From Rhizobium sp. NLR16a (GTDB lineage: Bacteria > Pseudomonadota > Alphaproteobacteria > Rhizobiales > Rhizobiaceae), in the NCBI RefSeq assembly GCF_017948245.1, contig NZ_CP072872.1, positions 6,084 to 70,083 on the forward strand: a stretch of DNA of 64,000 nt. The letters are read 5' to 3'. Below the pieces are notes generated by a model, which saw only the letters and a program-made list of their open reading frames with translations, was not told where the DNA came from and did no database searches. Both the position numbers and the translations under genes were made by a program. Shown in pieces: positions 4,690-31,978 of the stretch; within the stretch, counting starts at the first letter, position 1, and the number at the start of each line of letters is the position of its first letter.

Positions 4690-4700
4690 GTCCGCGCCCC

Positions 4701-6680: not shown

Positions 6681-6736
6681 GGGGCAGGAGCCCCGCTCCT
6701 GCTCCCCGAGTTCGCGCGGAGCAGCGGGAGAGAGGG
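6681..6736. repeat. 56-bp repeat, inverted copy at 32538-32593
   Basis: The reverse complement of these 56 bases matches 32538-32593 at 54 positions. The element includes the inverted repeat GCAGGAGC/GCTCCTGC. Both copies lie in the leader of a small plasmid gene. Confidence 0.85.
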
Positions 6737-7003
6737 AGGCAAGGGAACAAAACGGAGGGGGTTCGCCCGCCCGAGGCATGAGCCGAAGGGGCGACGCAAA
6801 ATCCGCACGTGCGGATCCGCGTCGATCCTGCACGGAGCGAGCCGAAGGCGAGGGGAGGAAGGACGGGGAGACCGTTTTTTCCCTTGTGAGGGAGAGAGGG
6901 CGGCGCCCTCTTTCCCTCCTTCAGGAAGACAGAGTCGGCCGCCGGGCCGCCATTTCAGATATGGAAAGGGCCGCCCTGCCTCATAGATCAGGACGGCCCC
7001 CGC

Positions 7004-10959: not shown

Positions 10960-11050
10960 CGCCCCAAACTTTCAATACACATTTCGGCTTGCGTTTTCGT
11001 TAGGTAGACAAGCTGCTTGTAGACCAAATCGGAAAACCAGTAGTCCCCAT

Positions 11051-12082: not shown

Positions 12083-12283
12083 TTCACCCTCAAACTGCAG
12101 TCGGCCGCGAGTGTGACATTGCCACCTACATTTTTGGCAAACAATGATCCGACTTATTCATCCACGCAGAAGATTTCGGCACGCCGGATGGCGCACCCTG
12201 CCGCCAATGGACCAAGAGCCGCTCGGACGTTGGTGAGGTCTTGAGGCTGGTTCCCATGACATCAGTTGGCGAGCCCGCAATTT

Positions 12284-13345: not shown

Positions 13346-13429
13346 GCTCTCTATTTCAACAGCATTTGCTTAAAAGTATCCATATGAAAGTCCGGTTAGC
13401 CGCGGCCTAAACGGACGCGGACGCCCAGA

Positions 13430-14452: not shown

Positions 14453-14461
14453 TCTGATTTC

Positions 14462-16051: not shown

Positions 16052-16066
16052 AGGCTTACCAGATTC

Positions 16067-16086
16067 GGTTTCGTTTGGTTTCGTTT
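16067..16086. repeat. Two tandem GGTTTCGTTT repeats upstream of rcgA
   Basis: Two exact 10-bp copies lie head to tail and a decayed third begins at 16087. They are 16-35 bp upstream of the rcgA start, within the expected promoter, and could be an activator or repressor site. Confidence 0.7.
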
Positions 16087-16170
16087 GATTTCTTACCCTA
16101 TCGTGCCTCCGGCCTCAATCAATGCGTTTAATGCAACGAAAAAGCGCCTCTAAATTGGCGCGGACAACAG

Positions 16171-16662
16171 GTGGATATTGGGATGTCAATTTCAAATTCG
16201 CTTCGATCCCGTCGTAGCGAAATCTTGTCTTCCGGACTTCGCACGGCTTTGAGTGCGTTGGCTTCCGACGGTATCTCTTGTGTAGAAGTCGAGGGGCCTT
16301 CGGATCGGGCGCCACACGAAGTAGAGAGTAAGGCGGAAACTGCGGTTTCCCTGGATGAATTGATGGAACGGCATATCGCCGCGCATCTGGCGGCCGCAGA
16401 TGCCATTCGTTTCTGGGATCAACGGAGGATAGTTGGTGGGGCTGCGAGTGTCGCCAAAGCCAAAGGACTGCTGGATGTTGCGCGACACGAACAAGCTGGC
16501 CGGCTGGCGATCGTCGATTACTTGCCGCGGACCAATCGGGAATCAAGGCAAAAGCTGACCTACATGGCGGCTTACCTGATCGCGACTCGGGGTACTTTGG
16601 CGCCGCATGAGATGAATTCCGTCTTGGAGGGCCCTCGCGATTGGCCCGTATCGGTCTCCTGA
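16171..16662 (+). CDS. Hypothetical protein, paralogue of the gene at 32626
   Basis: A 163-residue protein whose last 105 residues closely match the product of 32626-32967: ETAVSLDELM(E/D)RHIAA, then A(D/G)xI-R-x-WD, EQAGRLAIVDY and KLTYMAAYLIAT. DNA identity between the two is also high. The first 55 residues are unique and low in complexity. An ATG at 16183 is an alternative start. The protein is helical, soluble and of unknown function. Duplication within a single window suggests recombination between plasmid segments. Confidence 0.55.
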   Translation: MDIGMSISNSLRSRRSEILSSGLRTALSALASDGISCVEVEGPSDRAPHEVESKAETAVSLDELMERHIAAHLAAADAIRFWDQRRIVGGAASVAKAKGLLDVARHEQAGRLAIVDYLPRTNRESRQKLTYMAAYLIATRGTLAPHEMNSVLEGPRDWPVSVS

Positions 16663-16802
16663 GTCCCTTCGTATTCCGACTGCACAATGATGTGCTCGAC
16701 CATAGTGCTGTCGGCTTTAACGGCGCTGGCGCAGCGAGCGTTTTGGGCCGCGGCAGCGGCGATGGAAACCGACGCTACCACGGCCTTAGTGCCAAGCTTC
16801 AT
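16572..16802 (-). CDS. Possible small exported peptide coupled to the upstream gene
   Basis: The ATG overlaps the TGA of the 264-residue gene (ATGA), a common sign of coupling. The first 25 residues (MKLGTKAVVASVSIAAAAA) look like a signal peptide. Against it, the frame overlaps the end of the opposite-strand gene at 16662 by 91 nt, and no close ribosome site is present. Treat as doubtful. Confidence 0.25.
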   Translation of the reverse strand: MKLGTKAVVASVSIAAAAAQNARCASAVKADSTMVEHIIVQSEYEGTQETDTGQSRGPSKTEFISCGAKVPRVAIR

Positions 16803-17593
16803 TGAGCTTCAACACACCCTTCATTGTGCCAAGCCACCTGTTCATCTTCTGCCGGGTGGATGTCCATCGGCGAGGCGCTGCAGGCGGGGCAGTGCCAAAG
16901 GTTTTTGGAGATCTGTGTCCCGGTAATTATCTGATCGCAATGGAAGCAAAACCACCGATCGGAACATGACTCGAATAACGGATGCTGCACTTTCCCATTG
17001 GCGTCAGGCACCGTTGATCGGCGAGGCCAGTCCGATGCAATCCGGGCGCGCACCTGCTCAGCGCGGATCTGGGCTACCCTGAGGGCCTTTTCTACAAAGC
17101 CCTCGTTTAGGATTGGGTTCGACTTAATCCTCCTATCGGTAACACTGGTTTCGGGTTTCGCTGACGGCGCCTCGGGAACAACTACCCGCCATCCGCGGCC
17201 TCGCATGAACACATCGTCACAGTCGACGCTGAGACTAAATTTGTGGCCATCGAGTTCGCCCAGTATCTCGTCAGCCGAGAAGGGGTCCTCTGGATCTCTC
17301 GCGATCGACGCAACTATCGTAGTACCTGGTACGGAATAAAGTGCGTCCAAACCCGCGGTGAAAGATTTTTGGGCTCTTAGAGGGTTCGCGGCGTCGACGA
17401 TCGCCCTTATCGCGTCGATCTGCTCCAAACTCGGTCGCCACCCCTTCTTGTGAGCTGACGTTAGAGCGTTCCAGTGTGGATAGCCCATTTGCTGGGCAGT
17501 CTCGTCGAGAGCAACGAATTGCTTAATACGTCGCGCGCGTGCGAGTTTCTTCGAAAGGGCCCTTATGAAGTTGAGGGATTCTGCCGTATCCAT
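16799..17593 (-). CDS. Hypothetical protein with a C-terminal zinc ribbon, 264 residues
   Basis: The N-terminus (ALSKKLARARRIKQFVALDETAQQMGYPHWNALT) is a helical module that I know from several plasmid and chromosome proteins of alphaproteobacteria, where it precedes different domains. The centre has no clear motif. Near residue 220, CFHCDQI and CPACSAS make a zinc ribbon. It is a single gene on the minus strand. Function unknown. Confidence 0.6.
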   Translation of the reverse strand: MDTAESLNFIRALSKKLARARRIKQFVALDETAQQMGYPHWNALTSAHKKGWRPSLEQIDAIRAIVDAANPLRAQKSFTAGLDALYSVPGTTIVASIARDPEDPFSADEILGELDGHKFSLSVDCDDVFMRGRGWRVVVPEAPSAKPETSVTDRRIKSNPILNEGFVEKALRVAQIRAEQVRARIASDWPRRSTVPDANGKVQHPLFESCSDRWFCFHCDQIITGTQISKNLWHCPACSASPMDIHPAEDEQVAWHNEGCVEAQ

Positions 17594-18147: not shown

Positions 18148-18372
18148 TTGGTTAGTTTTGATTTTTCACTCGATGAGGACTGGTCGACAAACATCGGCCA
18201 GCTGAGGGCGCATCTAGAGACAGTTGACGCCGAGTGCGCCAAAATCCTCTTCGAGAACCTCGCCATCTTGGAAGCCGGCGACAACAACGCGCGGCGGGAT
18301 TTCAATCAGAAGGTCCTTGAAGCCTTGGAGGTCGCCGCGGAGGCGGAGATAGACTCTCAGGGGGGCGAGTGA
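18148..18372 (+). CDS. Small partner protein of the Rad50-like ATPase
   Basis: A 74-residue acidic helical protein starting at a TTG five bases after GGGGGAGGT. Its stop overlaps the ATG of the ATPase gene (TGATG), so the two are coupled and probably interact. Small 'middle components' preceding SMC-like ATPases are known from ABC three-component systems, but I do not recognise this one as a named type. Confidence 0.6.
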   Translation: MVSFDFSLDEDWSTNIGQLRAHLETVDAECAKILFENLAILEAGDNNARRDFNQKVLEALEVAAEAEIDSQGGE

Positions 18373-20870
18373 TGCCCCGCTACTACCTGACCAAGCTCGG
18401 CGTCGAAGGGTTTCGAGGCATCAAGAATGAGGGAGATCCACTCACCCTTCGCTTCAGGGCAGACGCGGTCAATTCCATATATGCCCAGAACGGTATCGGC
18501 AAGACCTCGCTGTTCGAGGCCATCAGCTACGCCATCTTCGACAAGTTACCCAAACTCGACGGGCTCCAGCGGAGCGAACGGCCGGAAACATATTATGTGA
18601 ACCGCTTCCATACGGGCGGAGTCGGCTCCATCTCTTTGGAGTTCACACCTGACGACGGCACCACACCAGTCGAAATCCTCGTCCGGCGCACCGCCGTAGG
18701 TCAGCGTACCGTGACGAGCCCGACAGGACATGGCGATCCCGAAGCTTTTCTCGCCACGTTGGCCGAAGATTTCACGGTCGTGGATTACGCTAAATTCACC
18801 CGCTTTATCGATGATTCGCCCCTCGATCGAGGGCGTACCTTCTCCTCCTTGATCGGACTGGCCCGCTTCGCGCACCTCCGCCAACGGTTTGATCAAGCGA
18901 GCAACACACGGGCTTTCAACACCGATTTCCAGATGGCCGCGTTGAAGGCGAAGCTTGAAGCCGCAGAAAAGCTCGTGCGGGACCATCGGGCTGCGGCGTT
19001 GTCGTCTTATGAAGCCGTGACGGGAACGGCAATCCAGGACCTGTCGGCGGAAGTACAACGGGTCGCCGAAGTCACGGCTGCACTTGCTGACATTCCAACG
19101 CTCGCGCCTGTCTTCGCCGGAAAAGACATCCTCACGGTGGACATGGACGCCGCCCGCGCCGCCATCGTCGCGGCGGAGGGTGGCCCCGCGAAGGCCGAGT
19201 ATCAGAAGGTGCTGCGCAATATCGAGGCGCTTTCCCAAAGCGCCCCCACGCCGGAAGCGGCGGCCGACATCGGGACGCTTCTCGACCTAGCACGCCGCCA
19301 TGACGCGGCGGTCGCCTTCGCCGGCAGCAAGAGCCGGCAGGATCTTTTCGAGGCCGCCAAGGGCGTGGTCGAGGAAGCGGACTATAGCGATCCTCAACAA
19401 TGCCCGGTCTGCGACACGCATATCGAAGAGCCCATTGCCACGCGGATGGAGCGGCTGCTTGAGCGCTACCGTGAGGCGGACCAACTCGGCGAAGACCTCA
19501 AGCAGGCCATGACCGCAAGCACCTGGCTTGATTGGCTCAACAAGCTGGAAAGCTGTACCGCCCTGACCGTCCCAGACGACAAGAAACACCGGGCGAGCGT
19601 CCGACAGTTGGCGAGCGAAAGCCGCCTGACCGAGGGTCGCCTGCGGGAAGCCGTTGATAACGCGCAGCAGCTTGAAGAAGAGCGAAAGTCTATCCTAGAG
19701 GCGGCGCAAAAGCGGGAACAGGAGCTTCAGGCGGAATTGCCGCCGTCACTGGTCGCACTAACCCAGCAACTCGAGGCCGGAAGCCGATTCCGTGAAGCCA
19801 TCCTTGGACATCGTACGGCGGCAAAGGAAGCAGGCGCCTGCCGGTCGCACAAGAAATGGCGAGAGCGGTGGCAAACCTTCATCGGCGCCGCCGCCAAGAC
19901 CGTGGGCGAGGCGGAAAGTCGGCTGGCGACCCAGCGCATCAACGCGATCGAGGCGAGCTATCAAGACCTGTTTCGGGGTCTGGTGAGGGGCGGCGTGGAT
20001 ATGCGGCCCAAACTGGAGCGGTCGGCAGACAGCGAAGACGTGGATCTGAAGTTGGAGAACTTCTACGGCGAGACTGGTATCTCGGCACGGGCCGTCCTTT
20101 CCGAGAGCTACCGGAACGCCATAGCCGGCTCAATCTTCTTTGCAGCGGCCGTCAAGCAGAGCGGTCCCGCCCGCTTCATGGTGCTCGACGACATCACCTC
20201 CAGCTTTGACGGCGGCCACCAGTTCGCCTTGATGGAGGCCTTGCGCACCAAGTTGCAGGCTTCCGCGGCAGCCGACGGCCTTCAATTCATCGTGCTCAGC
20301 CACGACACGCTGCTGGAGAAGTATTTCGACAAGACGGCGAGCGAGCAGGTGGGTTGGCACCACCAGCGCCTGCAAGGCGCCGCGCCGACGGGGAACGTGT
20401 ACGCCAGCCAACTCGATGCGAACCGGCTAAAGATTCTCGCGACGACACATCTTCAGGCCGGTCAGGTGGACATCGGCCAGCCGTTCGTGCGGCAGTACCT
20501 GGAATTCAAGCTGTCGCAGATCATCTCCAAGCTGAAGATTCCCGTGCCGCCCGACTATGCCATCCGGAGCGACAACAAGACCGTCGGAAACGCCCTTGAT
20601 GCCATTACATCGGCCATCGACCTTTTCGATGGCGCCGGCAAGCTCGTACTGAGTGCGCAGCAGAAGACGGATTTCCGCAATCAGCATGTGCCGGCGATCA
20701 TCTCGAACTATGTCAGCCACTACGAGACCGGTGGCGGAACGCCAATCAACGCGCATGTGCTATTGGGCGTGCTGCAATCCGTCGACGATGTCGCCGAGTG
20801 CTTCCGCTACGATGATACCTCCAAGACTCCTCCAGAAAGGAGGTGGTATAGGAACCTCGGGCAGCGCTAG
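18372..20870 (+). CDS. Rad50/SMC-like AAA ATPase with zinc hook
   Basis: An 832-residue protein. The Walker A motif NGIGKTS lies at residues 40-46 after the GVEGFRGIKN strand typical of RecF/SMC heads. Long helical segments (about 180-240 and 350-540) frame the CPVC motif at residues 344-347, the zinc hook that joins two coiled coils in Rad50. Walker B and D-loop occur as FMVLDDITSSFDGG near residue 600. The last 130 residues are an extra domain. No nuclease of the Mre11/SbcD type lies next to it. The gene converges on the five-gene restriction-like operon with a 56-nt gap, which suggests a common defence locus. Confidence 0.8.
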   Translation: MPRYYLTKLGVEGFRGIKNEGDPLTLRFRADAVNSIYAQNGIGKTSLFEAISYAIFDKLPKLDGLQRSERPETYYVNRFHTGGVGSISLEFTPDDGTTPVEILVRRTAVGQRTVTSPTGHGDPEAFLATLAEDFTVVDYAKFTRFIDDSPLDRGRTFSSLIGLARFAHLRQRFDQASNTRAFNTDFQMAALKAKLEAAEKLVRDHRAAALSSYEAVTGTAIQDLSAEVQRVAEVTAALADIPTLAPVFAGKDILTVDMDAARAAIVAAEGGPAKAEYQKVLRNIEALSQSAPTPEAAADIGTLLDLARRHDAAVAFAGSKSRQDLFEAAKGVVEEADYSDPQQCPVCDTHIEEPIATRMERLLERYREADQLGEDLKQAMTASTWLDWLNKLESCTALTVPDDKKHRASVRQLASESRLTEGRLREAVDNAQQLEEERKSILEAAQKREQELQAELPPSLVALTQQLEAGSRFREAILGHRTAAKEAGACRSHKKWRERWQTFIGAAAKTVGEAESRLATQRINAIEASYQDLFRGLVRGGVDMRPKLERSADSEDVDLKLENFYGETGISARAVLSESYRNAIAGSIFFAAAVKQSGPARFMVLDDITSSFDGGHQFALMEALRTKLQASAAADGLQFIVLSHDTLLEKYFDKTASEQVGWHHQRLQGAAPTGNVYASQLDANRLKILATTHLQAGQVDIGQPFVRQYLEFKLSQIISKLKIPVPPDYAIRSDNKTVGNALDAITSAIDLFDGAGKLVLSAQQKTDFRNQHVPAIISNYVSHYETGGGTPINAHVLLGVLQSVDDVAECFRYDDTSKTPPERRWYRNLGQR

Positions 20871-20926
20871 TTTGGTTGCCGATGCGACCGGTCAGGGGCA
20901 GAACCACGAGTTTGACTATTCGGGCA

Positions 20927-23902
20927 TCACATGCTCACCTCGGCCAGAGAGGTGACGACGGCGTAATCGACTCCAATCGATTCAAAGTGCTTGCGGCCAC
21001 AGGCGATCTTCTGGTTTTCCTTGGTGCGGCGCTCCTCGGAATCCACGGTGCTCTTGGTTTCGCGCACAAAGTAGAGTTTCTCCTCGCGCTCGGTGACGAA
21101 GGCCCAATCTGGATTGTAGGAGCCGATGGGCGTGTCGATCTTGAACCAGGACGGCAGCTTGACGAACAGCTTGACGTTCTCGTTGCTATCGAGGTCGCGG
21201 GCAAACTTCTTCTCGACTTCCGACTCGTACTCAATCGCATCAAACAGGGATTTCTCTCGGTTCTGCACCTCGTAGAGATTGCTCAGGTAGCGAACGATCC
21301 CTTCCTCGGCGTCCTGCTCGATGCGGCTTTGCTCCCAATGAGCCCCGGCAACCTTCTCGTACTTGATGCCCTCCAGCATCAGGTCGTGAAGTGCGCGCGA
21401 GATTTCCTTCGCGACCGCCGCCATAAATGCCTGGGGATTCATCTTGAACTCGCCGAGCCTGCCCGAGCGCTTCAATATCTCCGCAAGGGTGTGCCGGGTC
21501 AGCTCCGTTTCCTTTTGCAGGAAGGCGAGGATGTCCGGCAGCATTTTGACCGGCTCGGCCTCGCGAACGCGGGTCGCGATCTGTCTGTCCGCCGAGACGC
21601 CCGCGTCAGTGATATCCACCTCGACGACAGTCGTCGCGACGCGCGGCCCTTTGATCGGCTCGATCTGCTTGATGCGGGCGAGCGCCCTTTCGATGAGGTC
21701 GGGCGTAGCAAAGGTCACGCGGTAACGGGTGCGGTGTTTGATCTTGTCCCACAGCTTCTGGAAATCCTCGCTCAGATGGACTTCCTTGCGGAATTTCAGC
21801 TCGCGCCGGTCGCGGGCGTTGACGATGCGATTTTTGAAGACCTTGCGGTTAACCTCATCGACGATCTCCGCGCGAAGATCCGCGAATGCGTCCGACACTT
21901 TCAATTCGAAATGCGGGTTCTTGGGGTCGAACTTGTCCAGGATGTCGCCGACGGTGTTGAGATAGCCGCCCGCCACCAGCTCGGCCCAGATCTTGGCCGA
22001 TTCATCCTGCCCGATCTCACTTTCCGTCCCGTCTTCGGCCTTGCGCACGAGCTTCGCGAACGCGATCTTCTCGACCTTGCCGAAGCGGATGCCGAAATCC
22101 TCCTCGAACTCACTCTGAAGCGCCCGGGCGAAATCCTCATACGATTCATTGGCGATGACGGTCAGCCGGTTTACGGTTTCGTCGTGAACGCGCTCACCCC
22201 GCTTCTCGCCCATGCCATAGACAGGAAGCCGCAATCCGCGACCGATTTCCTGGCGTTTCCTGTCGGCGGACTGCGTTTCATTGAGGGTGCATATCTGGAA
22301 GACGTTGGGATTATCCCACCCCTCGCGCAGGGCGGAGTGCGAGAAAATAAAGCGCAAAGCGACTTCAGGATCGAGCAGCCGCTCCTTGTCGCGCATGATC
22401 AGATTGAAAACGTCTTCGTCTGCGGCTAGCTGCGTCTTGCCGGAATGCACATCTTCAAAGGGAGTGACTACCTTCTTGTCCTGCGAGAAATACCCGTTGT
22501 GCACCTCCAACACATTGAAAGAGATCAGCCCCTTGTAGATCGGCTTCGCCGTCAGCTCGCGGTAGGCCTCTTCAAACCACTGACCGATCTTGCCAAGGCT
22601 GGTCGTGCCGTCGTCGTTGTAGATGCGGTAATTGGCGACGCGGTCGATGAAGAAAAGCGAGAGCACCTTGATGCCCTTGCCCTTGAGCGCGCGCTCCTTC
22701 TTGAGGTGTTGCTCAACGGTCTCATAGACCTGTGCCTTCATGATGTCGTCGGCAAGGCCACCGGTTTCCTGCCCAAGTTCCAGGAAGCGGCCCTGATTGA
22801 ACTCGACATATTCGGAGCCGGGAGTGCAGTCGATGTTTTGGACAATGTAGCCGTTGCGATACGCGTCACGCTCGTCGGACTTCACATACAGGTCATCGCC
22901 CTGCTTGACCCATAGCTTGGTAGCTTTCGGCCCCGCCTTGCCCTCTTTGTGAATCTCAAGCCGCGCCCTGATGCCGTTCTCGTTGTCCGTCGCGATCAGC
23001 TTCACATAGGCGTCGTTGAAATTCTCGTCCGAGCGGACGGAAGCGACTTCGATCCGCTTCACAAGCCGGAGATCATAGGCCCTCACCGGATCCAGCTTAT
23101 AGACAAGATTGTACGGGTTCTTGTGCGTCGCGCTGTAGCGCAGCGTCACCATCGGGTTGAGATTGCCGATCGCCTTACGCGATTTCTCGGTCGTATCGAC
23201 GCTCTGCGGCTCGTCGATGATGACGATGGGATTGGCGGCCTGAATGAACTCGATGGGCCGCCGCCCGGACATGCGGTCGTTTTCGCGGTTTATAACGTTG
23301 AGCTTCTTCAGCTCGTCCTCGGTCATCTCCGACAAATCCTTGTCCGCAACATCCTTCTGGAAGGACTGGATGTTGATGACCATGATCTGAATCTGGTTGC
23401 TGGACGCGAACTGCCGCACCTTTCCGAGGCGCTTGCTGTCATAAACAAAGTGATCGAATGGCGCCTTGTCGTAGAGCGTCTGGAAGTGCTCTTTCATCGT
23501 TTCGATGCTCTTAAGCACGCCCTCTCGGATGGCGACGCTCGGCACGACGATGATGAATTTCTTGAAGCCGTAGGTTTTGTTCAGCTCGAAGACCGAACGC
23601 AGATAAACATACGTTTTGCCGGTGCCGGTCTCCATTTCGACGGAGAACTCGCGGCCCGCAAGCGCCGCGACCTTCTCGATGTCGTTGGCTTCCTGAATCC
23701 GGTTGACGTTCTTGAGAAGCTCGTCATCCGGCAGGCCAAGCCGGTTTCCCATGCCCAGTTCGGTCTGGAACAGCCCGCCGATCTGGAGCGACTGGAAGGC
23801 CATTGCCCCCGTCTGCGCGAATGGCTGCCCGTCGAACACGCCGACGACTGCATTGATGGCATCCTGCTGATATTGAAGGGAGGGGTCGAACTTGAGCTTC
23901 AT
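20927..23902 (-). CDS. Type III restriction Res-like helicase-nuclease
   Basis: A 991-residue superfamily 2 helicase. Walker A is METGTGKT (90-97), Walker B is DEPQ (230-233), then LRYSATH and the late motif RQEIGRGLRLPV. Near the C-terminus the PD-(D/E)xK nuclease is seen as PDWAFV (931) and E948-T-K950. This is the build of type III Res subunits, which translocate on DNA and cut after contact with a Mod partner. Its ATG overlaps the stop of the DUF262-HNH gene (ATGA). It is the last gene of the operon that begins at 30255. Confidence 0.85.
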   Translation of the reverse strand: MKLKFDPSLQYQQDAINAVVGVFDGQPFAQTGAMAFQSLQIGGLFQTELGMGNRLGLPDDELLKNVNRIQEANDIEKVAALAGREFSVEMETGTGKTYVYLRSVFELNKTYGFKKFIIVVPSVAIREGVLKSIETMKEHFQTLYDKAPFDHFVYDSKRLGKVRQFASSNQIQIMVINIQSFQKDVADKDLSEMTEDELKKLNVINRENDRMSGRRPIEFIQAANPIVIIDEPQSVDTTEKSRKAIGNLNPMVTLRYSATHKNPYNLVYKLDPVRAYDLRLVKRIEVASVRSDENFNDAYVKLIATDNENGIRARLEIHKEGKAGPKATKLWVKQGDDLYVKSDERDAYRNGYIVQNIDCTPGSEYVEFNQGRFLELGQETGGLADDIMKAQVYETVEQHLKKERALKGKGIKVLSLFFIDRVANYRIYNDDGTTSLGKIGQWFEEAYRELTAKPIYKGLISFNVLEVHNGYFSQDKKVVTPFEDVHSGKTQLAADEDVFNLIMRDKERLLDPEVALRFIFSHSALREGWDNPNVFQICTLNETQSADRKRQEIGRGLRLPVYGMGEKRGERVHDETVNRLTVIANESYEDFARALQSEFEEDFGIRFGKVEKIAFAKLVRKAEDGTESEIGQDESAKIWAELVAGGYLNTVGDILDKFDPKNPHFELKVSDAFADLRAEIVDEVNRKVFKNRIVNARDRRELKFRKEVHLSEDFQKLWDKIKHRTRYRVTFATPDLIERALARIKQIEPIKGPRVATTVVEVDITDAGVSADRQIATRVREAEPVKMLPDILAFLQKETELTRHTLAEILKRSGRLGEFKMNPQAFMAAVAKEISRALHDLMLEGIKYEKVAGAHWEQSRIEQDAEEGIVRYLSNLYEVQNREKSLFDAIEYESEVEKKFARDLDSNENVKLFVKLPSWFKIDTPIGSYNPDWAFVTEREEKLYFVRETKSTVDSEERRTKENQKIACGRKHFESIGVDYAVVTSLAEVSM

Positions 23903-25170
23903 CCGGCGACCTCGGCAAAATCAGGGTGCGTGTTGTTTTTGATCAGGTTGCAGGTCGGGCAAGCGACCTGTCCGTTCGACACGGTGGTCTGCCCGCCTTT
24001 GGAATGCGGCACCTTGTGGTCGGCATGCCAGTCGGCCCAGCCGAGCTTCTCCCCGCCGCAATGCGTACGGATTTGGCAGCGTCCGTCGTCCTTGCGGTAG
24101 ATCGCGAGCCTCTGCTCCGGCGTGAAAACGCGGATGACATCGATGGTCGGAATGTCGGGGCAAGCGAGGAAGAAACGCTTTTGCAGATATTCGAGCCTTC
24201 CCCTGATCGATTCCTCGCCGTCCGTCGAATAGCTCGTGAGGCGGCGATATTCGACCAGCGTAGCGTCCCGCTTCTCCTCATCGAGTTCTTCCTGCGCCCG
24301 GCGCTCTGTCTCGAAGGCAATAAACCATTTCGCCAGCGCCTCTTCCGTGCCCGCATGGACATAGTTTTCAAGAAGCGTCGAGGCGAGGCAGTACAGTGTG
24401 ATGACGTTGTACCGCTCAAGCTCGGGCGTTTTCTCGGGGAACGCCCGCAGCAGGTAGTCGAGGACGCGGCGAACCTTTTTCGCCACCTTGCCGCCGGCGT
24501 CAAAGGTAACATGGTCGTCGTACATGCGGTTGAGGTCAGCATCGCGGACGCTTGTCGGCCCGTTTGCCATCTCAAGACACACAATCTGCGCCGCAATCTG
24601 GTCGAAGGTGAATCGCTTGTTGCTGAACTTGCAGTTCTCGAAGAATTTGTGCTGGGCAAGCGCCTTCACAAAGTCGCGCATCTGCCCCGGCTTCGCATTG
24701 CGCTTTTCCTGCGCTTTCAGGGTCGTGCCGTTCTGAAGCCGCAGGAACATATCGCGGACTTCATCCTCCTCGTCGTTCTGCACGGCGTCATCGACGATGA
24801 CCACGTCCACCGGATACGCATCGAAGATCGTGCTGACATCGAGGTCGAGCTGATCGTAGGTCTTCCCCGCGCAGGGGAACCCGTTCACCGGATCGGTATC
24901 GCGAGCCAGGGCAAACTCGCCCGACCGGAACTCCCAGATCGTCCGCAGACGCTGCTGCCCGTCAATGACCTCGTACCTCACACCATCGTCACGATTGACG
25001 GCGCGCCAGTACATCTTCGGAATGTCGAATTCGCGAAGAATGGAATCGATCAAAAGCTGCTTCTGCTTCCGCGACCAGGCGGGAGGGCGCTGATAATCAG
25101 GCGTGGGATCGACCTTCTTCTGCCAAGCGCAAATCGTCGAGATCGGAAGGGGTTTTTTGCTCATTCTCAT
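23899..25170 (-). CDS. DUF262 (GmrS/ParB-like) protein with C-terminal HNH nuclease
   Basis: A 423-residue protein. The DUF262 motif D70-G-Q-Q-R74 within YEVIDGQQRLRTIWEF marks the ParB-like NTPase fold shared with GmrS and similar type IV restriction proteins. A helical region (about 100-350) follows. The last 65 residues are an HNH nuclease: GRCQIR, WHADHKVPHSKGG, CPTCN. GmrSD-type enzymes cut modified DNA, but here the gene lies inside an operon with a methyltransferase and a Res subunit. MSK two codons in (25164) is an alternative start. The family assignment is firm and the substrate is open. Confidence 0.85.
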   Translation of the reverse strand: MRMSKKPLPISTICAWQKKVDPTPDYQRPPAWSRKQKQLLIDSILREFDIPKMYWRAVNRDDGVRYEVIDGQQRLRTIWEFRSGEFALARDTDPVNGFPCAGKTYDQLDLDVSTIFDAYPVDVVIVDDAVQNDEEDEVRDMFLRLQNGTTLKAQEKRNAKPGQMRDFVKALAQHKFFENCKFSNKRFTFDQIAAQIVCLEMANGPTSVRDADLNRMYDDHVTFDAGGKVAKKVRRVLDYLLRAFPEKTPELERYNVITLYCLASTLLENYVHAGTEEALAKWFIAFETERRAQEELDEEKRDATLVEYRRLTSYSTDGEESIRGRLEYLQKRFFLACPDIPTIDVIRVFTPEQRLAIYRKDDGRCQIRTHCGGEKLGWADWHADHKVPHSKGGQTTVSNGQVACPTCNLIKNNTHPDFAEVAG

Positions 25171-25182
25171 CGGTCAGCCCCC

Positions 25183-27204
25183 TCAAACCGTCTTGAAGAC
25201 GATTTCGGATTCCTCGGCCTCGGCCCTCGCCCGGAAGGTCTGAACCGCGTTCGCCTTCAACTGATCATTGCCCCTGAAGCCTTCGTCCAGGCAGATGACC
25301 TGCAACGGGTCGGCTTCCGCCAGCGCATCGATCAGTTCCGGGGTGATCTCCTTCTCAAGGCAAATGAGCAGCGCGCCATCCTCGATGGAAAAAACTTCGT
25401 TGCCCGCAAGCTTTGTCGCCTGAACCTTCGTCGTCAGAGGGAATCCCGCCTTGAGCAGCAACTCGTAAAGCACGTCTTCGGAGCTACTGGAGCCCGACAA
25501 GTGATCGACGTGCATCTCAAGCTGCTCGGCGATGTCTTCTGCCTGCCCAAGGTCGCCCGTCCAAACTCGGAAATTTGAGCGTTGCAGGGCAAAGGCGCGA
25601 AACCCCATGACCGGAATCTGTGCGTCGTCGAGTAAAAGCTCGTCGTCTTTCGTGGGCTTGGCCATCGCCTGACAGGCATTCTTTAGGCGTGTTCTCCCAA
25701 TGTCAGAGATCGCGCGAAACCCGGCTTTGTAAGCCTTTGAATCGACATCTGTTCGTTCGGGTAGTTGGACAATAATGAAGTTCACGGCCTTACCTAGTTG
25801 CGCTGAGAGATGCAGCGCCGCATGACCGGTAGTGGCTGATCCACCAAAGAAGTCGAGGACGGTATCTCCTGGTTTGCAAACCAGAGAAATTAAATCGGCG
25901 ATTACCTCTTTGTTTTTTGGGAACGGGAAAATTCCCTCACCGACCAGCTCTTCGACTTCGAGCGTGGCAGAGCGTCCATCGACGTAAAAGACGGACGAAA
26001 ATGGCTCCTCGGCAATTTCGTGAAGATAGCTCTTTCGGTTCGGTATAGTTGTTTCATCCGGGCCGAAATGAATACGTGGCGGATCCTCCGCCAATGCCCA
26101 TTTGGTCTTTTTCTCATCCCACCGCCAGCCGGTGGAGGGCTTTTGGCACGGCTTCTTGGTCACTGGATGGAAGATGTCATGGCGCGGCCGGTTCTTCCGA
26201 CCGTCGTCTGGGCCGGCAAAGTTGTCCGGGAAGTACAGGCCGCGATTATCAGACCAGTTGTAGTGCTTGTGGGCTTTGCGCGGGTCGGAATTAGGCATCT
26301 TTCGATACCACTCCATCATGTGCTGCCTTATCAACTCATGATCGTTGTTTAGCGTCTCGCGAAGGCGCTGGTAGTGAGCCAACACCTCGTCCGCTCCGGG
26401 CTTTGGTTTACGCCACGGGCCGGCTGCGAGGCTGTCCTCTTTGCTCTTCGTATATACGAGGATGTACTCGTGAATGTTGCCGATCGTCTTTGAGTCGCCT
26501 TTCTTTGATCGTTGCCATACGATCTGAGCTATGAAGTTCTCCTCTCCGAAAATTTCGTCGAGGAGATTGCGGAGATGCGGCGCCTCCACGTCGTTGATGC
26601 TCACGAAAATCACGCCGTCGTTCTTCAGGAGATTGCGAGCGAGATATAGCCGTGGATACATCATGCTCAACCAGCGTGTGTGATACCGGCCAGCAGTGTC
26701 CGAGTTCGTAGAGAAGCGACGCCCCTCTTCGTCCGCCTGATTTGTATATGAGAGATAGGTTTCGAGCGTCTCTGCGTACTTGTCCGGGTATATGAACTCG
26801 TTTCCGGTATTGTAAGGCGGATCGATGTAAATCATCTTTATTTTGCCGAAATACGCCTTCTGAAGAAGCTTCAGCACTTCAAGGTTGTCACCTTCGATAA
26901 ACAAATTATCGGTTTCATCAAAGTTGACCGACTCCTCCCGCGCGGGTTTGAGCGTCGCCACGCTCGGCTGCTGAATGATCTTCATGCACTCGGCTTTGCC
27001 GGGCCAGTTGAGGCCGAACCGTTCCTTGCCCGGATCGACCCATTCGCCGAGGACGCGCTTGAGCTGATCGAAGTCGATAGCTCCTTCGGCAAATACCTCC
27101 GGGAACGCTTCTCCAAGGCGGTGTTTCAACTCGTCCCGCTTCTCCTGCGCCACATCCATGGAGGCAAGATCAAACTTCTCCGGTTTGGCTTCCGGCTTAT
27201 TCAT
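25183..27204 (-). CDS. Site-specific DNA N6-adenine methyltransferase (type III Mod-like)
   Basis: A 673-residue enzyme. The catalytic motif DPPY is at residues 128-131 (MIYIDPPYNTG), and the cofactor motif DFFGGSATTGH follows near residue 450. DPPY before the cofactor loop is the beta-class order, as in Mod of type III systems. Between them lies an insert that probably recognises the target. The C-terminal 150 residues are unusual and may contact partners. The ATG at 27204 is preferred to the GTG at 27219 because GGG lies just before it. It follows the SNF2 gene with an 11-nt gap. Expected role: methylation of host DNA as self marking. Confidence 0.85.
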   Translation of the reverse strand: MNKPEAKPEKFDLASMDVAQEKRDELKHRLGEAFPEVFAEGAIDFDQLKRVLGEWVDPGKERFGLNWPGKAECMKIIQQPSVATLKPAREESVNFDETDNLFIEGDNLEVLKLLQKAYFGKIKMIYIDPPYNTGNEFIYPDKYAETLETYLSYTNQADEEGRRFSTNSDTAGRYHTRWLSMMYPRLYLARNLLKNDGVIFVSINDVEAPHLRNLLDEIFGEENFIAQIVWQRSKKGDSKTIGNIHEYILVYTKSKEDSLAAGPWRKPKPGADEVLAHYQRLRETLNNDHELIRQHMMEWYRKMPNSDPRKAHKHYNWSDNRGLYFPDNFAGPDDGRKNRPRHDIFHPVTKKPCQKPSTGWRWDEKKTKWALAEDPPRIHFGPDETTIPNRKSYLHEIAEEPFSSVFYVDGRSATLEVEELVGEGIFPFPKNKEVIADLISLVCKPGDTVLDFFGGSATTGHAALHLSAQLGKAVNFIIVQLPERTDVDSKAYKAGFRAISDIGRTRLKNACQAMAKPTKDDELLLDDAQIPVMGFRAFALQRSNFRVWTGDLGQAEDIAEQLEMHVDHLSGSSSSEDVLYELLLKAGFPLTTKVQATKLAGNEVFSIEDGALLICLEKEITPELIDALAEADPLQVICLDEGFRGNDQLKANAVQTFRARAEAEESEIVFKTV

Positions 27205-27215
27205 TTGCTGCCCTT

Positions 27216-30065
27216 TCACTGAATTTCAAACCTTATTGCGAACAGCTCCTCGTCGGTCACGCTCTGACCGAGCCGTTCTTCCACCTGATCCAGAAGGCCG
27301 TCCTTCTGAACCTCAATCTCTTTCGCGGCGGCGTCATAGGCGCGCCACGCTTCATCCCGCTTCGTTTCCAGCGTCCGCGCCTGCCGTTGCAGCGCGAGCT
27401 TGGCCGGCAGGTTGCCGGTCTGGCGGATTTCCTTCTTGAGCGCCTTGATCTGCTCGTCCAGCTCCTTCAAATCCGCCTTGAGCCCCGCGCGCTTGTCCTC
27501 GGCCCAGTTGTCGAGCTTTTCCATTTCCTCGTCGAACCACGCGGACTGCCGCGCGGCCATCTCGTCGAGGATGGACTTGCGCTCCTTCTCCACGGCCTGT
27601 TTAACCGGGTCGGGCAGTGTCAGCTCTGCCGTTCCGTCCATGCGAGCAGGAAGCTCGAACAGGCGCATCGCGGCCTTCGGATCGAGGCGCGCGCCGTCAT
27701 CGGTCATCGCGGCGAGGATGATATGATCCTGGTCATCGGAACCGCGCACCGAGAGCTTGTGCGCGACAAGCGTTCCGGCCTTGCCGACAAGCGGCTCGAT
27801 GGCCACTGCCTTCTGCCGCCATGCTGTGTAGTCGAATGCGATCGACGCGCCGTTCAGCTTGCGCGATCCGGCCATCGAGAGGAGGTGCTGTGCCAGCGGA
27901 TGCCCCAGCCGATAACGATGCCCGTCAATGCCATGGCGAGACATGAAATAACTGCCGGGCGCGACATTGATGCCGGCAGGCGCATCCTTCAGCATGAAGG
28001 TGAAATAATCGTCGTCGAACTTCGCCTGCTTGCAGAGTTCGTGCTTGGTGACCGCCCAAAGCATCCGCGCATAGCGGTCGAGATATTCCTTGCTCTGGGA
28101 CATGTTCACCTTAAGGCGGTCATGCACCTCGGCGTCGAAATTCTCTAACAGCTTGCGACGCGTGTCCTCCATCGTGACGGAGATGTTCGTTTCCATTTCC
28201 TCGCGCAGCCGCTCGAACTGCTCCTCGATCTCTTCGGTCGAGCGACAGTTCTGATAGATGGAAACGATGCGTTTTTCGAACTCGACGCCGGATTCGATAG
28301 CGCCGAGCACCTCGTCACTCGCTCCGAAGACGCCTGAGAAGAGCTTGAACTTTTCGGCAAGCAGTTCATAGACGCGCTGATCGGCGGCGTTGTTCTTGTT
28401 GAGGAAGTTGACAACGACCACGTCGTAGCGCTGACCGTAGCGATGGCAGCGCCCGATGCGCTGCTCGATACGCTGCGGATTCCAGGGTAGGTCGTAATTG
28501 ACCACCATGGAGCAGAATTGAAGGTTGATGCCCTCGGCGGCAGCCTCGGTCGCGATCATGATCGAGGCCGTCTCTCGGAAATAATCGACGAGCGCCGCCC
28601 GCATATCGGCGGTACGCGATCCGGTCACGCGGTCGGTGCCTTTGTGGTGTTCCACCCACGCCTCATAGATGGCCTTCGATTGCGCGTCCGAGTTCGATCC
28701 GTTGAAGAGGACGAGCTTGCCGTCGTAGCCGTTCGCGCAGAGCAGGCGGACGAGATATTCCTGCGTACGGCGGGATTCCGTGAAGATGATGGTCTTCTCG
28801 GCGCCGCCCAGCTCCATTGCCTTCGCAAAGCCGGCGCGGAGCGCACTGAGCAGCGCCACGCCCTTCGCGTTTTCCGAGATTGAAACTGCAAGGTCGCGGA
28901 AAGCCCGCAGGTCGGCGATTTCCTGCTCGATGTTGGCTATGTCATCGGCGGTGAGAAGTTCCTGCTCGCCGCCGTCCTCTTCCCATTCGTCGGCGATTTC
29001 CTCGAATTCTTCGTAGTCCTCGGCGATCTCCTCCTCCAGCTTCTGGCGAAGGTTCGTATCGTCGCGAAGCTGGCGCTCCAGCTTGCGAGCGAGGGAATCG
29101 AGCGCCCCGGCGATGGCGAAGGTCGAGGATGCGAGCAGCTTGCGCATGATGAGCGTCATCAGCGTGCGCTGGCTTGAGGGCAGCGCCTGCAACGAGGGCC
29201 GCCGCAGATAGTCGGACACCATATCGTACAGGGTCTGCTCGGCGTCGGTGGGCACGAACTCCTGCGTGATCGGAATGCGGTTGGTGTAGCGGATATATTC
29301 GAGCACCTGCCGCCGCAGCGTCCGGTGGCAAACGGGCTTCAGCCGGCCCTTCAGCTCGTCGAACTGGCCGTCTCCGGAAAGCCGGGCGTATTGGGCGCGG
29401 AAGCTTTTCGCGTCGCCGAAAGCGTAATCGTCGATCAGGCTGACAAGCCCGTAAAGCTCCATCAGGGAGTTCTGAAGCGGCGTGGCCGTGAGCAGCACCT
29501 TGGGCGCATTCGCAAGCGCCCCCTTGAGCGCCCTGCCGATGCGGTTATCCGGCCGATAGACGTTGCGCAGCCTGTGCGCCTCGTCGATGACGACCAAATC
29601 CCACGGAATCACCATCAGCTCTTCGGCATGGCGCGCGGCGAACTGAAAGGAGCAAATGACAAGCGCCTTTTGTTCGAACGGGCGGCGGATGCCGTCCTTC
29701 GCCATCTTGTTGTAGTTGCGGGCCTCAAGGATGACCGTGGGAAGGAAGAACTTTTCGGCGATCTCCTGCGCCCATTGCTTGCGGAGGTTGGCGGGGGTGA
29801 TGACAAGGATGCGCCGGCGTCCTTCCGTCCATTTCTGGGCGAGCACCAGCCCGGCCTCGATGGTTTTTCCGAGACCTACCTCGTCAGCGAGGATCGCGCC
29901 TTTCGACAGCGGCGACTTGAAAGCGAACAGGGCTGCCTCGACCTGATGCGGATTCAAATCAACCTGTGCATCGAGAAGTGTGCCGGCCAACTTCGCGGCA
30001 TCCGCCACAGAATGCCGCCTGCTCAACTCATGAGCGAATAGCTTGGCGTGGTATTCGGTGATCAC
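27216..30065 (-). CDS. SNF2/RapA-type helicase of a defence locus
   Basis: A 949-residue SF2 translocase. GLGKT (64-68) and DEAH (161-164) form the ATP site. The second RecA domain carries IIFTESRRTQEYL, ATEAAAEGINLQ and QRIGRCHRYGQ. Residues 370-410 are a strongly acidic insert. The last 200 residues form a long coiled coil. Such SNF2 proteins accompany methyltransferases in DISARM and in type III-like clusters. DISARM is excluded because drmA, drmB and drmC are absent. The start overlaps the end of the HTH gene by 38 nt. It probably moves on duplex DNA and brings the nuclease subunits to unmodified targets. Confidence 0.85.
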   Translation of the reverse strand: MITEYHAKLFAHELSRRHSVADAAKLAGTLLDAQVDLNPHQVEAALFAFKSPLSKGAILADEVGLGKTIEAGLVLAQKWTEGRRRILVITPANLRKQWAQEIAEKFFLPTVILEARNYNKMAKDGIRRPFEQKALVICSFQFAARHAEELMVIPWDLVVIDEAHRLRNVYRPDNRIGRALKGALANAPKVLLTATPLQNSLMELYGLVSLIDDYAFGDAKSFRAQYARLSGDGQFDELKGRLKPVCHRTLRRQVLEYIRYTNRIPITQEFVPTDAEQTLYDMVSDYLRRPSLQALPSSQRTLMTLIMRKLLASSTFAIAGALDSLARKLERQLRDDTNLRQKLEEEIAEDYEEFEEIADEWEEDGGEQELLTADDIANIEQEIADLRAFRDLAVSISENAKGVALLSALRAGFAKAMELGGAEKTIIFTESRRTQEYLVRLLCANGYDGKLVLFNGSNSDAQSKAIYEAWVEHHKGTDRVTGSRTADMRAALVDYFRETASIMIATEAAAEGINLQFCSMVVNYDLPWNPQRIEQRIGRCHRYGQRYDVVVVNFLNKNNAADQRVYELLAEKFKLFSGVFGASDEVLGAIESGVEFEKRIVSIYQNCRSTEEIEEQFERLREEMETNISVTMEDTRRKLLENFDAEVHDRLKVNMSQSKEYLDRYARMLWAVTKHELCKQAKFDDDYFTFMLKDAPAGINVAPGSYFMSRHGIDGHRYRLGHPLAQHLLSMAGSRKLNGASIAFDYTAWRQKAVAIEPLVGKAGTLVAHKLSVRGSDDQDHIILAAMTDDGARLDPKAAMRLFELPARMDGTAELTLPDPVKQAVEKERKSILDEMAARQSAWFDEEMEKLDNWAEDKRAGLKADLKELDEQIKALKKEIRQTGNLPAKLALQRQARTLETKRDEAWRAYDAAAKEIEVQKDGLLDQVEERLGQSVTDEELFAIRFEIQ

Positions 30066-30255
30066 CGCTGCTGCCCCCCCGTTGCTCCTCGACCTTCCGC
30101 TTTATCCAGTTTGCAATTTCTTGTCGCTCAAAACGCCACGACCCTCCGACCTTGAAGCCGGGAATTTTTCCGGCAGCGGTTAGCTTGTAGGCCGTCTTCT
30201 CATTGATCTTGAGAAGCTCGGCCACCTCCCGCACTGTCAGAATTTCGTCGGTCAT
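30028..30255 (-). CDS. Excisionase-like (MerR-type) HTH protein, first gene of the defence operon
   Basis: A 75-residue DNA-binding protein. Residues 5-55 (ILTVREVAELLKINEKTAYKL, then IPGFKVGGSWRFERQEIANWI) are the winged-helix module called 'excisionase family' in annotation. GGAAAG lies before the ATG at 30255. It leads the operon and overlaps the SNF2 gene, so it is more likely an autoregulator or DNA-recognition subunit than a true phage excisionase. No integrase is next to it. Confidence 0.75.
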   Translation of the reverse strand: MTDEILTVREVAELLKINEKTAYKLTAAGKIPGFKVGGSWRFERQEIANWIKRKVEEQRGGSSGDHRIPRQAIRS

Positions 30256-30443
30256 TCGCTTTCCAGGAATCGCCCCCAACTGTCTTATAGGGGAGAAATT
30301 GGAGAAAATCAGAGAGAAAGTTGGAAGTGTCCAAAAGGAACTTGCTTGCAAGGATCCTATTTGGGGCCAATGGCGGTGGTGAGGTGGCTCATTTGGGTAG
30401 GTTCGCGCGGTATAGCTCATTAGAGTTGTCGATTGCTTTTTTG

Positions 30444-30502: not shown

Positions 30503-31129
30503 ATGAGGATCGCCCGGGTTTATCTGCGCGTGAGTACACAAGGGCAGGATCTCGATCGCCAAGAGGCGATCATCGATCAGGCGAAGCAGGCGGGCTATTA
30601 CGTCGCCGGCGTCTACCGCGAAAAAGCGTCTGGCGCTCGCGCCGATCGGCCGGAACTACTGCGCCTGGTCGCCGATCTTCAACCGGGCGAAGTCGTGATT
30701 GCCGAAAAGATCGATCGCATTAGCCGCCTGCCATTGCCTGAAGCCGAAAAGCTGGTCGCGACGATCCGGGGGAAGGGCGCCCGTCTCGCCCTGCCCGGCG
30801 TGGTCGATCTCAGCGACCTGGCCGCCGGCGCAGACGGCACTGCCAAGATCGTGCTCGAGTCGGTGCAGGACATGCTCTTGAAACTGGCGCTGCAAATGGC
30901 TCGAGACGATTTCGAGGATCGGCGCGAACGCCAGCGGCAGGGCATCGATCTGGCGAAGTCGGGTGGTAAGTACGTCGGCCGACAGGCGGACACCGCGACA
31001 CACGAGCGAGTAATCGCGTTACGATCGGGCGGAAATAGCATCGCCCGGACAGCAAAGCTGGCCGGCTGCAGCGTCAGCCAGGTCAAGCGGGTTTGGGCCG
31101 CGTTCGTGGCGCAAGCGACGGCTCAATGA
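30503..31129 (+). CDS. Serine recombinase (resolvase/invertase family)
   Basis: A 208-residue protein. It begins MRIARVYLRVSTQGQDLDRQ, in which the Ser of RVST is the nucleophile. The later EKIDRISR segment fits the conserved arginine region, and the C-terminal helix-turn-helix (NSIARTAKLAGCSVSQVKRV) binds DNA. The length is that of small resolvases such as those of Tn3 elements or plasmid multimer resolution. No transposase or terminal repeats are nearby, so dimer resolution for plasmid upkeep is the simpler reading. GGGAG precedes the ATG. Confidence 0.9.
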   Translation: MRIARVYLRVSTQGQDLDRQEAIIDQAKQAGYYVAGVYREKASGARADRPELLRLVADLQPGEVVIAEKIDRISRLPLPEAEKLVATIRGKGARLALPGVVDLSDLAAGADGTAKIVLESVQDMLLKLALQMARDDFEDRRERQRQGIDLAKSGGKYVGRQADTATHERVIALRSGGNSIARTAKLAGCSVSQVKRVWAAFVAQATAQ

Positions 31130-31192
31130 AGAAGGCAGCGTCTACAGCTCAGTGATTGCAACTTCGGCGGTTGACTGGCACAAAGTCAAACT

Positions 31193-31978
31193 ATGGCAAC
31201 TGACAACGTACCGGCCCTCGCACTGCTGATCGATGGCGACAACGCGTCCCCAAAGGTCGTCACCGGCCTGCTCGCCGAAATTGCCAATTACGGGGTGGCG
31301 AGCGTCAAGCGCATCTATGGCGACTGGACCGGACCAAATCTTAAAGGATGGAAGGAGTGCCTGCTTGAGCACTCCATCCAGCCGATCCAGCAATTCGCGT
31401 ACACGACCGGAAAGAACGCCACCGACGGTGCGATGATCATCGATGCCATGGACCTTCTTTATACCGGCCGTTTCTCAGGCTTCTGTATCGTATCCAGCGA
31501 CAGTGACTTCGCAAGGCTGGCGGCCCGCCTGCGGGAACAGGGCGTTACCGTCTATGGTTTCGGAGAGCGAAAAACCCCTCGTCCATTCATCACCGCTTGC
31601 GACAAGTTCGTCTATTTCGACGTGCTCAGTGCCGCTACACCGGAAGCGTCTGAGCCGGCCGTCCCGGCGTCGAAACCGAAGAAGCCTGTTGTTGATGCCG
31701 CGCCGGCTAACAAGTCTGCCGCGACGAAGCCGGCGCTGGACAAGGCCGCGCTCGATATGTTGGTCAAGGCCGTAACCGCCTCGGCCGATGAAGACGGACG
31801 CGCCAATCTTGCTCGCGTCGGCGCACATCTGGCAAAGCAAGCACCGGATTTCGACGCTCGTAATTATGGCTTTCCTCGTCTTAGCGACTTGGCCGAAGCG
31901 TCTGGCATCGTCGACGTCGAGCGCACCGGAGAGAATCCCAAGATCGTCATGGTGAGACTGCGGAAAGATCGCCGTTGA
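31193..31978 (+). CDS. NYN-domain nuclease with C-terminal LOTUS (OST-HTH) domain
   Basis: A 261-residue protein. Residues 8-150 are a NYN (PIN-like) domain: LLIDGDNASP, NATDGAMIIDAMDLL and CIVSSDSDFARLA carry the metal-binding acidic residues. A Pro/Ala/Lys-rich linker (about 150-185) leads to a LOTUS domain near 190-258 (MLVKAVTASADEDGRANLARVG ... ), which binds RNA. The family (LabA/YaiI-DUF88-like) is presumed to act on RNA. No strong ribosome site precedes the ATG. It follows the resolvase by 63 nt on the same strand. Confidence 0.8.
   Translation: MATDNVPALALLIDGDNASPKVVTGLLAEIANYGVASVKRIYGDWTGPNLKGWKECLLEHSIQPIQQFAYTTGKNATDGAMIIDAMDLLYTGRFSGFCIVSSDSDFARLAARLREQGVTVYGFGERKTPRPFITACDKFVYFDVLSAATPEASEPAVPASKPKKPVVDAAPANKSAATKPALDKAALDMLVKAVTASADEDGRANLARVGAHLAKQAPDFDARNYGFPRLSDLAEASGIVDVERTGENPKIVMVRLRKDRR

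Follow-up and report, generated by a model that had tools for sequence, protein, structure and literature searches.

In type III restriction-modification systems, the methyltransferase Mod places its methyl group on a single strand of an asymmetric site. Cleavage is carried out jointly by Mod and Res and occurs between unmethylated sites, once ATP has triggered sliding; Mod enzymes of the EcoP15I type form N6-methyladenine. In the type III systems Eco86II and BspHIV, mod is preceded on its 5' side by an additional, conserved gene for a helicase-like ATPase (Murray et al., 2021, PMC8259958). In the accessible text of that paper, the extra gene is reported near Mod-Res in more than 500 genomes and is assigned no role, both systems form N4-methylcytosine (m4C), Mod alone is sufficient for methylation in both, and no peptides of the third protein were found in partly purified Eco86II, which (partly) cut DNA in vitro. 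Here we report on a locus of seven genes with a similar core, located at positions 18148-30255 of a 64-kb stretch of DNA from Rhizobium sp. NLR16a (contig NZ_CP072872.1, positions 6,084 to 70,083), which was analysed as a whole and is referred to as the window.

We conclude, with a probability of roughly 0.8, that the operon at 30255-20927 is an SNF2-associated type III restriction-modification system accompanied by a helix-turn-helix (HTH) regulator and by one passenger nuclease, and that a convergent SMC-like ATPase and its small partner are independent of it. A first-pass annotation, made from the sequence, had described the seven genes as a defence-like locus matching no system that could be named. 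Its defence-like character is upheld, and a name for its core exists: the core is that of the type III group of Murray et al. with a helicase-like ATPase gene before Mod-Res. While the SNF2-Mod-Res core is already in print, the exchangeable passenger gene, of which no description was found in the open-licence literature searched, and the re-pairing of the SNF2 gene with different Mod-Res pairs are new as far as that search went.

The SNF2-Mod-Res core and its distribution

The Mod protein matches Pfam N6_N4_Mtase and the PADLOC model MTase_III (607 bits); its best match in the PDB is the Mod subunit of EcoP15I (PDB 4zcf; 270 bits, window residues 37-516 of 678), and its motifs follow the beta-class order, with DPPY at residue 133 and FGGSATTG at 458. 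Res matches Pfam ResIII and RE_endonuc (residues 883-984) as well as PADLOC REase_III (973 bits), and its sole PDB match is EcoP15I Res (198 bits, residues 55-562 and 885-977 of 991). It carries GTGKT at residue 93, DEPQ at 230 and PD at 931, the ETK after PD931 having been found by eye. A beta-class Mod homologous to EcoP15I Mod and a Res with a superfamily 2 (SF2) ATPase and a C-terminal PD-(D/E)XK nuclease are both present, and judged by their sequences the two proteins are an ordinary EcoP15I-like type III restriction-modification pair.

The protein encoded before Mod shows the Pfam domains SNF2-rel_dom and Helicase_C, with the motifs GLGKT, DEAH, LLTATP and QRIGRCHR. It is matched by NCBIfam DISARM_DrmD_b with 713 bits, below the cut-off of 950, by PADLOC DrmD with 706 bits and by PADLOC BrxHI/BrxHII with 228 bits, and by DrmA only as a 108-bit helicase cross-match. 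The locus of E. coli NCTC86 has the order SNF2-Mod-Res, and its SNF2 protein is 46% identical to that of the window over 970 columns; the identity of the Mod proteins is 27% over 399 columns, and the Res proteins could not be aligned by BLASTP (best 24.6 bits). With a helicase-like ATPase gene 5' of mod and homologous to that of Eco86II, the window operon belongs to the third group of Murray et al., the equation of the NCTC86 gene with the third gene of the paper resting on strain, gene order and description.

To describe the neighbourhood of this SNF2 gene, loci were picked by SNF2 similarity alone, without regard to their neighbours. Set A comprised 91 loci: 8 from plasmid records (chosen from 40 rows), 3 of the 5 genomes of the window's taxonomic class with a full-length SNF2, and 80 loci, the best of 562, that were obtained by scanning 84,980 species genomes. 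Set B consisted of the best 53 of the 69 SNF2 loci in the viral_contigs collection, which may be proviruses or mislabelled plasmids. Loci were testable if the SNF2 frame had at least 840 amino acids (77 of set A) and was followed by at least 6 kb of sequence (63 of these). Mod and Res were found on the SNF2 strand in 54 of the 63 testable loci of set A, in the order SNF2, Mod, Res in 52 of them; in L081 and L093, Mod-Res comes before SNF2. The genome-scan loci alone gave 45 of 53, across 12 named phyla, and set B gave 28 of 36. The association of SNF2 with Mod-Res is real and wide, and it is not absolute.

A phage origin was rejected: viral_contigs, when scanned, yielded no close relative of the DUF262-HNH protein or of the SMC protein of the locus, and no SNF2 match in the phage records covered 80% of the query. 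A BLASTN search with one Salmonella SNF2 gene had hits in 248 of 5426 complete E. coli genomes; in 29 genomes, the hit spanned at least 80% of the gene. Among the 289 genomes of the window's class, SNF2 is present at full length in 5, and Res in 13.

Window-type Mod-Res pairs also occur without this SNF2. The comparison covered about ten Mod-Res loci lacking it, several of them truncated where a contig ends. In G084 (Res 62-63% identical), G158 and G034 there was no SNF2 match of any kind in the 20 kb examined, while L260, L261, L262 and L264 have instead a distant SNF2 helicase of 1065-1164 amino acids (cut off by the end of the stretch in L260), followed by a gene of 226-257 amino acids and then by window-type Mod and Res. 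The intervening gene is DUF4391 in L260, L261 and L264, the three that were tested; L262 has the same layout. On these loci, the idea that this SNF2 is an obligatory partner of window-type Mod-Res was rejected. In L261 and L264, a further frame of about 750 amino acids lies after Res, and that of L261 (749 amino acids) has no Pfam match.

The Mod-Res pairs found beside SNF2 were sorted as short or long according to the best-matching reference, and the classes of Mod and Res of one locus never disagreed. On an SNF2 tree of 65 rows, which was of the quick kind with one support measure and from which L100 (a fused frame of 1801 amino acids) was left out, the fewest class changes were 6, and the well-supported branches alone force 6, compared with an average of 19.7 after shuffling; one of the six may hang on the long-branched pair L105/L107, whose members differ in class. 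The Mod-Res class is therefore mostly inherited with SNF2 and sometimes swapped. The window's own SNF2 clade of four holds both classes, with a long pair in G138 (SNF2 identity 74-75%). Because the same motor family is paired with two very different classes of Mod-Res, SNF2 may act through something common to both, most simply DNA. In addition, the loci gathered here make the role of the third gene easier to test.

The same observations bear on a different arrangement, in which SNF2 is the centre of the system, i.e. a DrmD-like motor which recruits whatever methyltransferase-nuclease pair and effector are available and works in the manner of DISARM or BREX and not of classical type III restriction. 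One SNF2 family with two Mod-Res classes and six changes between them would suit such a motor, and so would its scores against the DISARM_DrmD_b and BrxHI/BrxHII models. However, according to the accessible text of PMC8259958, the third protein of Eco86II was not required for methylation and was undetected in the preparation that cut DNA, and the PADLOC scan of 17 window proteins showed no match to DrmB, DrmC, PglZ or BrxC (for SNF2, among the best 25 of 49 families; for Mod, among the best 25 of 32). We regard this arrangement as unlikely.

Layout of the locus, passenger genes and the SMC-like pair

The genes of the locus are listed in Table 1.

Table 1. Genes of the locus, with their positions in the window.
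Product	Length (amino acids)	Positions	Strand	Remarks
HTH_17 protein	75	30028..30255	-	excisionase/MAD1-like; probable operon regulator, optional part
SNF2-family ATPase	949	27216..30065	-	'third gene' of SNF2-associated type III systems
Type III Mod	678	25183..27219	-	beta-class methyltransferase
DUF262-HNH protein	423	23899..25170	-	Mod-Res passenger; predicted nucleoside triphosphate (NTP)-dependent, type IV-like nuclease
Type III Res	991	20927..23902	-	SF2 ATPase and C-terminal PD-(D/E)XK endonuclease
Small protein	74	18148..18372	+	partner of the SMC-like ATPase; apparently a separate module
SMC/Rad50-like ATPase	833	18369..20870	+	apparently a separate two-gene module, convergent with the operon

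All seven open frames are present as described in the first-pass annotation, and its family assignments were confirmed with Pfam, PADLOC and NCBIfam, including the small protein (a 74-amino-acid frame) and the Rad50-like ATPase (AAA_23) convergent with the operon; the resemblance of the parts to type III, DISARM and type IV enzymes is borne out by the same matches. Its single minus-strand operon with junctions of at most 12 nt holds for SNF2, Mod, DUF262-HNH and Res, which are tightly packed (SNF2/Mod, 4-nt overlap; Mod/DUF262-HNH, 12-nt gap; DUF262-HNH/Res, 4-nt overlap), but not for HTH and SNF2, which overlap by 38 nt given the GTG start of SNF2 at 30065. The ends of Res and of the convergent SMC-like gene lie 56 nt apart.

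The window makes up most of a 70-kb contig that carries a VirB-type transfer region, and the nearest named backbone is that of a conjugative Rhizobium plasmid (93% identity over 73% of the 24 kb compared). The small, plasmid-like contig, together with the presence of a full-length SNF2 in just 5 of the 289 class genomes, might suggest that the operon is a decayed or silent plasmid remnant. All its frames, however, are open over their full length, SNF2, Mod, Res and the DUF262 protein (DGQQR) have intact motifs, and the junctions are coupled, so that decay or silence appears highly improbable.

On the longer frame 30028-30420, the HTH protein was matched by Pfam HTH_17 (1.9e-16) and by NCBIfam MAD1 (71.9 bits, below the cut-off of 80). 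An HTH gene lies upstream of SNF2 in 15 of 81 loci, as counted with a model built from 16 HTH sequences, which include most of the 15 positives, and which also scored 4 of 405 random stretches. With this frequency, HTH was rejected as a core gene; it is probably the regulator of the operon. RefSeq uses the name 'mads1' for the HTH gene beside SNF2-type III loci (L179 and L180, both E. coli; compare window 30028-30255), and the L179 and L180 regions have no other annotated MADS gene; the name may be misleading.

The gene between Mod and Res encodes a DUF262-HNH protein, with matches to Pfam GmrSD_N (66 bits), HNH (PF01844; 37 bits at residues 370-413) and PADLOC NsnA (99 bits), and with the motif DGQQR at residue 70. 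Our own HNH pattern of fixed spacing found no match, and the HNH call rests on Pfam and on reading of the sequence; no PDB match was found either. The DUF262 domain of GmrSD type IV enzymes is present, while their DUF1524 domain (GmrSD_C) is missing and HNH PF01844 stands in its place, and on this ground the protein was rejected as a GmrSD proper. Relatives occur in 14 of the 289 class genomes, including the window's own; of the others, G104 (37%) and G053 (29%) have matches spanning most of the protein, and no SNF2, Mod or Res match was seen in the 17-20 kb examined around the relatives of G104, G266 and G053.

Comparison of the ordered loci showed what else may occupy the place of this gene. 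In set A, 32 of the 52 ordered loci have a same-strand extra frame of at least 140 amino acids inside the operon, and 20 have none; the position between SNF2 and Mod is occupied in 27 loci, that between Mod and Res in 11, and both in 6. In set B, 11 of 28 ordered loci have extra frames and 17 have none. Such passengers, 68 with that of the window, match many Pfam families (best 25 of 52), namely AAA_21 (11), AIPR (7), Schlafen-AlbA_2 (6), DUF4276 (5), GmrSD_N (5), RhuM (3), SIR2_2 (3), Abi_2 (2), Fic (2), HerA (DUF87; 2), protein kinase (1) and others. At 1e-10, 331 PADLOC models are matched by these passengers and 43 by 68 length-matched control frames upstream of SNF2, the commonest model occurring in 12 and in 2 members, respectively; it should be noted that these figures count models, not proteins, and that many PADLOC models are variants of one family. 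The controls were drawn from 332 candidate upstream frames, and come from 45 loci with at most two per locus. The passenger set was obtained from 71 frames by leaving out five (an IS256 transposase, three minus-strand frames and one 148-amino-acid frame) and adding the annotated AIPR gene of L020 and the window gene to give 68, one L025 frame being shortened to its annotated start; it includes loci with Mod but without Res, and so differs from the 52 frames of the locus census. The tiling of genes in unannotated loci was mechanical, and false frames are possible in both the passenger and the control set.

Close relatives illustrate the exchange. G168, the nearest SNF2 relative (77%), has at the Mod-Res position a DUF262 protein of 601 amino acids which BLASTP hardly aligns with that of the window (24.3 bits), and L042 has a recognisable DUF262-HNH relative between SNF2 and Mod. 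Two E. coli genomes, each with an SNF2 96.6% identical to the Salmonella query, continue with Abi and AIPR in one case and with Abi and a 206-amino-acid frame, which may be a shortened AIPR, in the other. Since 11 of the 52 ordered loci carry a gene at the Mod-Res position, and the genes at this and the SNF2-Mod position are varied and often of defence type, the DUF262-HNH gene is regarded as an exchangeable passenger. Passenger positions offer a way to look for defence genes by place and not by sequence. In L018, a DUF262 and DUF3696 gene pair (4671-6922) was observed upstream of a Cupriavidus HTH-SNF2-Mod-Res operon.

A bolder generalization would make SNF2 and type III Mod-Res a general chassis, with a slot on either side of Mod, towards SNF2 and towards Res, for swapped stand-alone defence genes (AIPR, Schlafen-AlbA, AAA with DUF4276, SIR2, Abi, RhuM, Fic, kinase, GmrSD-like and SMC-like), where SNF2 would couple failed restriction to activation of the slot gene. 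This is tentative, and we hold it to be unlikely.

The convergent SMC-like ATPase matches Pfam AAA_23 and, in PADLOC, LmuB (67 bits), mad3 (47 bits) and mad8 (26 bits), while Pfam, PADLOC and NCBIfam gave no family match at E 0.001 for its 74-amino-acid partner. SMC-like relatives were found in 18 plasmid records, and none of six such regions on other plasmids contains a match to SNF2, Mod or Res. Frames of 70-74 amino acids abut the start of the SMC gene in 5 of 6 relatives, those of L026 and L027 being similar by eye to that of the window and the likeness being doubtful for the other three; in L026-L030 and the window, the pair of such a frame and an SMC-like ATPase of about 830 amino acids is plasmid-borne, in Rhizobiaceae, Rhodobacterales and Actinomycetota. 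No system name was found for this pair. Because the six other regions lack SNF2, Mod and Res matches, it looks like an independent, defence-like two-gene module which stands outside the operon system.

On the other hand, SMC-like proteins of 767-807 amino acids do occur as passengers after SNF2 in L037, L060, L071 and L111, each preceded by a frame of 63-87 amino acids that is unlike the 74-amino-acid protein by eye; in L111, only a 66-amino-acid Mod-like frame follows. A profile of five SMC-like passengers scored 57 bits on the SMC-like protein of the window, which, by this similarity, may be a distant cousin of the genes riding inside other SNF2 operons. These passengers with their small partner frames, the tight packing and a convergent neighbour only 56 nt away speak for the suggestion of the first-pass annotation that all seven genes are one system, e.g. 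one of integrated defence in which the SMC-like ATPase would be the sensor and DUF262-HNH the effector. However, at E 1e-20 and with at most three candidates scored per genome, none of the 289 class genomes besides the window's own has the SMC gene, as against 5 full-length copies of SNF2 and 13 genomes with Res; relatives of the SMC-like pair and of DUF262-HNH each occur without the rest in the stretches examined, an outcome that the first-pass annotation had itself named as refuting its reading; and no locus of set A repeats the seven-gene set within the flanks examined (at most 10-14 kb). A single seven-gene system is thus very improbable and already largely refuted.

Other features of the contig were observed outside the locus. 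At 9103-10275 (plus strand) lies another defence gene, Shedu SduA, which is separate from the locus (PADLOC 520 bits, Pfam SduA_C). Positions 10306-17593 hold a series of minus-strand frames, possibly another unknown module, which include those of a PIN_12 protein, of a DNA ligase (ATP-dependent) and of five proteins without Pfam or PADLOC match (217, 340, 529, 190 and 264 amino acids). Divergent from the operon, a serine resolvase is followed by an NYN and OST-HTH protein (30503-31978, plus strand).

Proposed mode of action

In an SNF2-associated type III system of the kind proposed here, a Mod dimer would recognise a short asymmetric site and methylate one strand, and Mod and Res would cut DNA bearing unmethylated sites after ATP-triggered sliding, as is established for EcoP15I. 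The SNF2 protein would be a DNA motor of the RapA/DrmD kind, most likely aiding restriction in vivo, for instance through the removal of proteins bound in the path of Res; such a role would fit its use with both Mod-Res classes and also the lack of the third protein in the Eco86II preparation. Neither methylation nor in vitro cleavage is likely to depend on it, considering that its Eco86II counterpart was dispensable for the former and undetected in the cutting preparation. DUF262-HNH is probably an NTP-dependent nuclease that attacks phage DNA protected from the type III enzyme by base modifications, in the way of BrxU, which, according to the accessible text of PMC12707154, also sits in a methylation-based defence island, beside BREX. 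The window operon would combine an enzyme that attacks unmodified DNA with a candidate for attacking DNA that is modified.

Several observations weigh against this interpretation. By the search used, 9 of the 63 testable loci of set A have no Mod-Res pair (a Mod-like frame occurs without Res in 2, and neither gene in 7, of which 4 are shorter SNF2 from Myxococcota), and neither do 8 of 36 loci of set B. Nor are inserts at the Mod-Res position limited to loci with this SNF2, as L260, with its distant SNF2, has there a 344-amino-acid frame without Pfam match. The absence of the third protein from the Eco86II preparation would also fit a role outside restriction, and the HNH domain in place of the DUF1524 of GmrSD implies that the target of DUF262-HNH may differ.

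Comparison with known systems

The first-pass annotation had noted that core genes of DISARM and BREX are missing, and this agrees with the PADLOC scan. The SNF2 of the window is related to DrmD of class 1 DISARM, but it falls below the NCBIfam cut-off, DrmA appears only as a cross-match, and no DrmB or DrmC match was shown among the window proteins scanned (for SNF2 and Mod, in their best 25 families); membership in DISARM was rejected, and so was membership in BREX, with no PglZ or BrxC match shown in the same scan. MADS consists of eight mad genes, of which the window offers only a MAD1-like HTH and the weak mad3 and mad8 matches of the SMC-like protein, and it was rejected as well. Lamassu and ABC-three-component systems combine the SMC-like LmuB with partners that include an effector; the SMC-like pair of the window has only the 67-bit LmuB match, and no effector gene was identified with it.

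With GmrSD and BrxU, the passenger shares the N-terminal DUF262 domain, and differs in its C-terminus, which is HNH PF01844 and not DUF1524. In the accessible text of PMC12839542, BREX and BREX-related loci likewise have a modification-based core with varying extra nucleases, GmrSD-family enzymes among these; their core, however, is PglZ, BrxC or DUF499, none of which was seen among the window proteins scanned. Operons linked to MORC ATPases, and defined by them, were described in 2008, some with type III-like helicases, or helicase-nucleases, and others with SWI2/SNF2 helicases and HNH nucleases (PMC2292703, accessible text). These components resemble those of the window locus, in which the Pfam, PADLOC and NCBIfam searches named no MORC.

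Among type III systems, EcoP15I has homologous Mod and Res proteins and is not known to have an SNF2, HTH or passenger gene. The SNF2-DUF4391-Mod-Res loci share the window-type Mod-Res with an upstream helicase, but have a larger, distant SNF2 and the additional DUF4391 gene. The Eco86II/BspHIV group has the same gene order as the window, i.e. SNF2-like ATPase, Mod and Res, to which the window operon adds the HTH gene and the DUF262-HNH gene.

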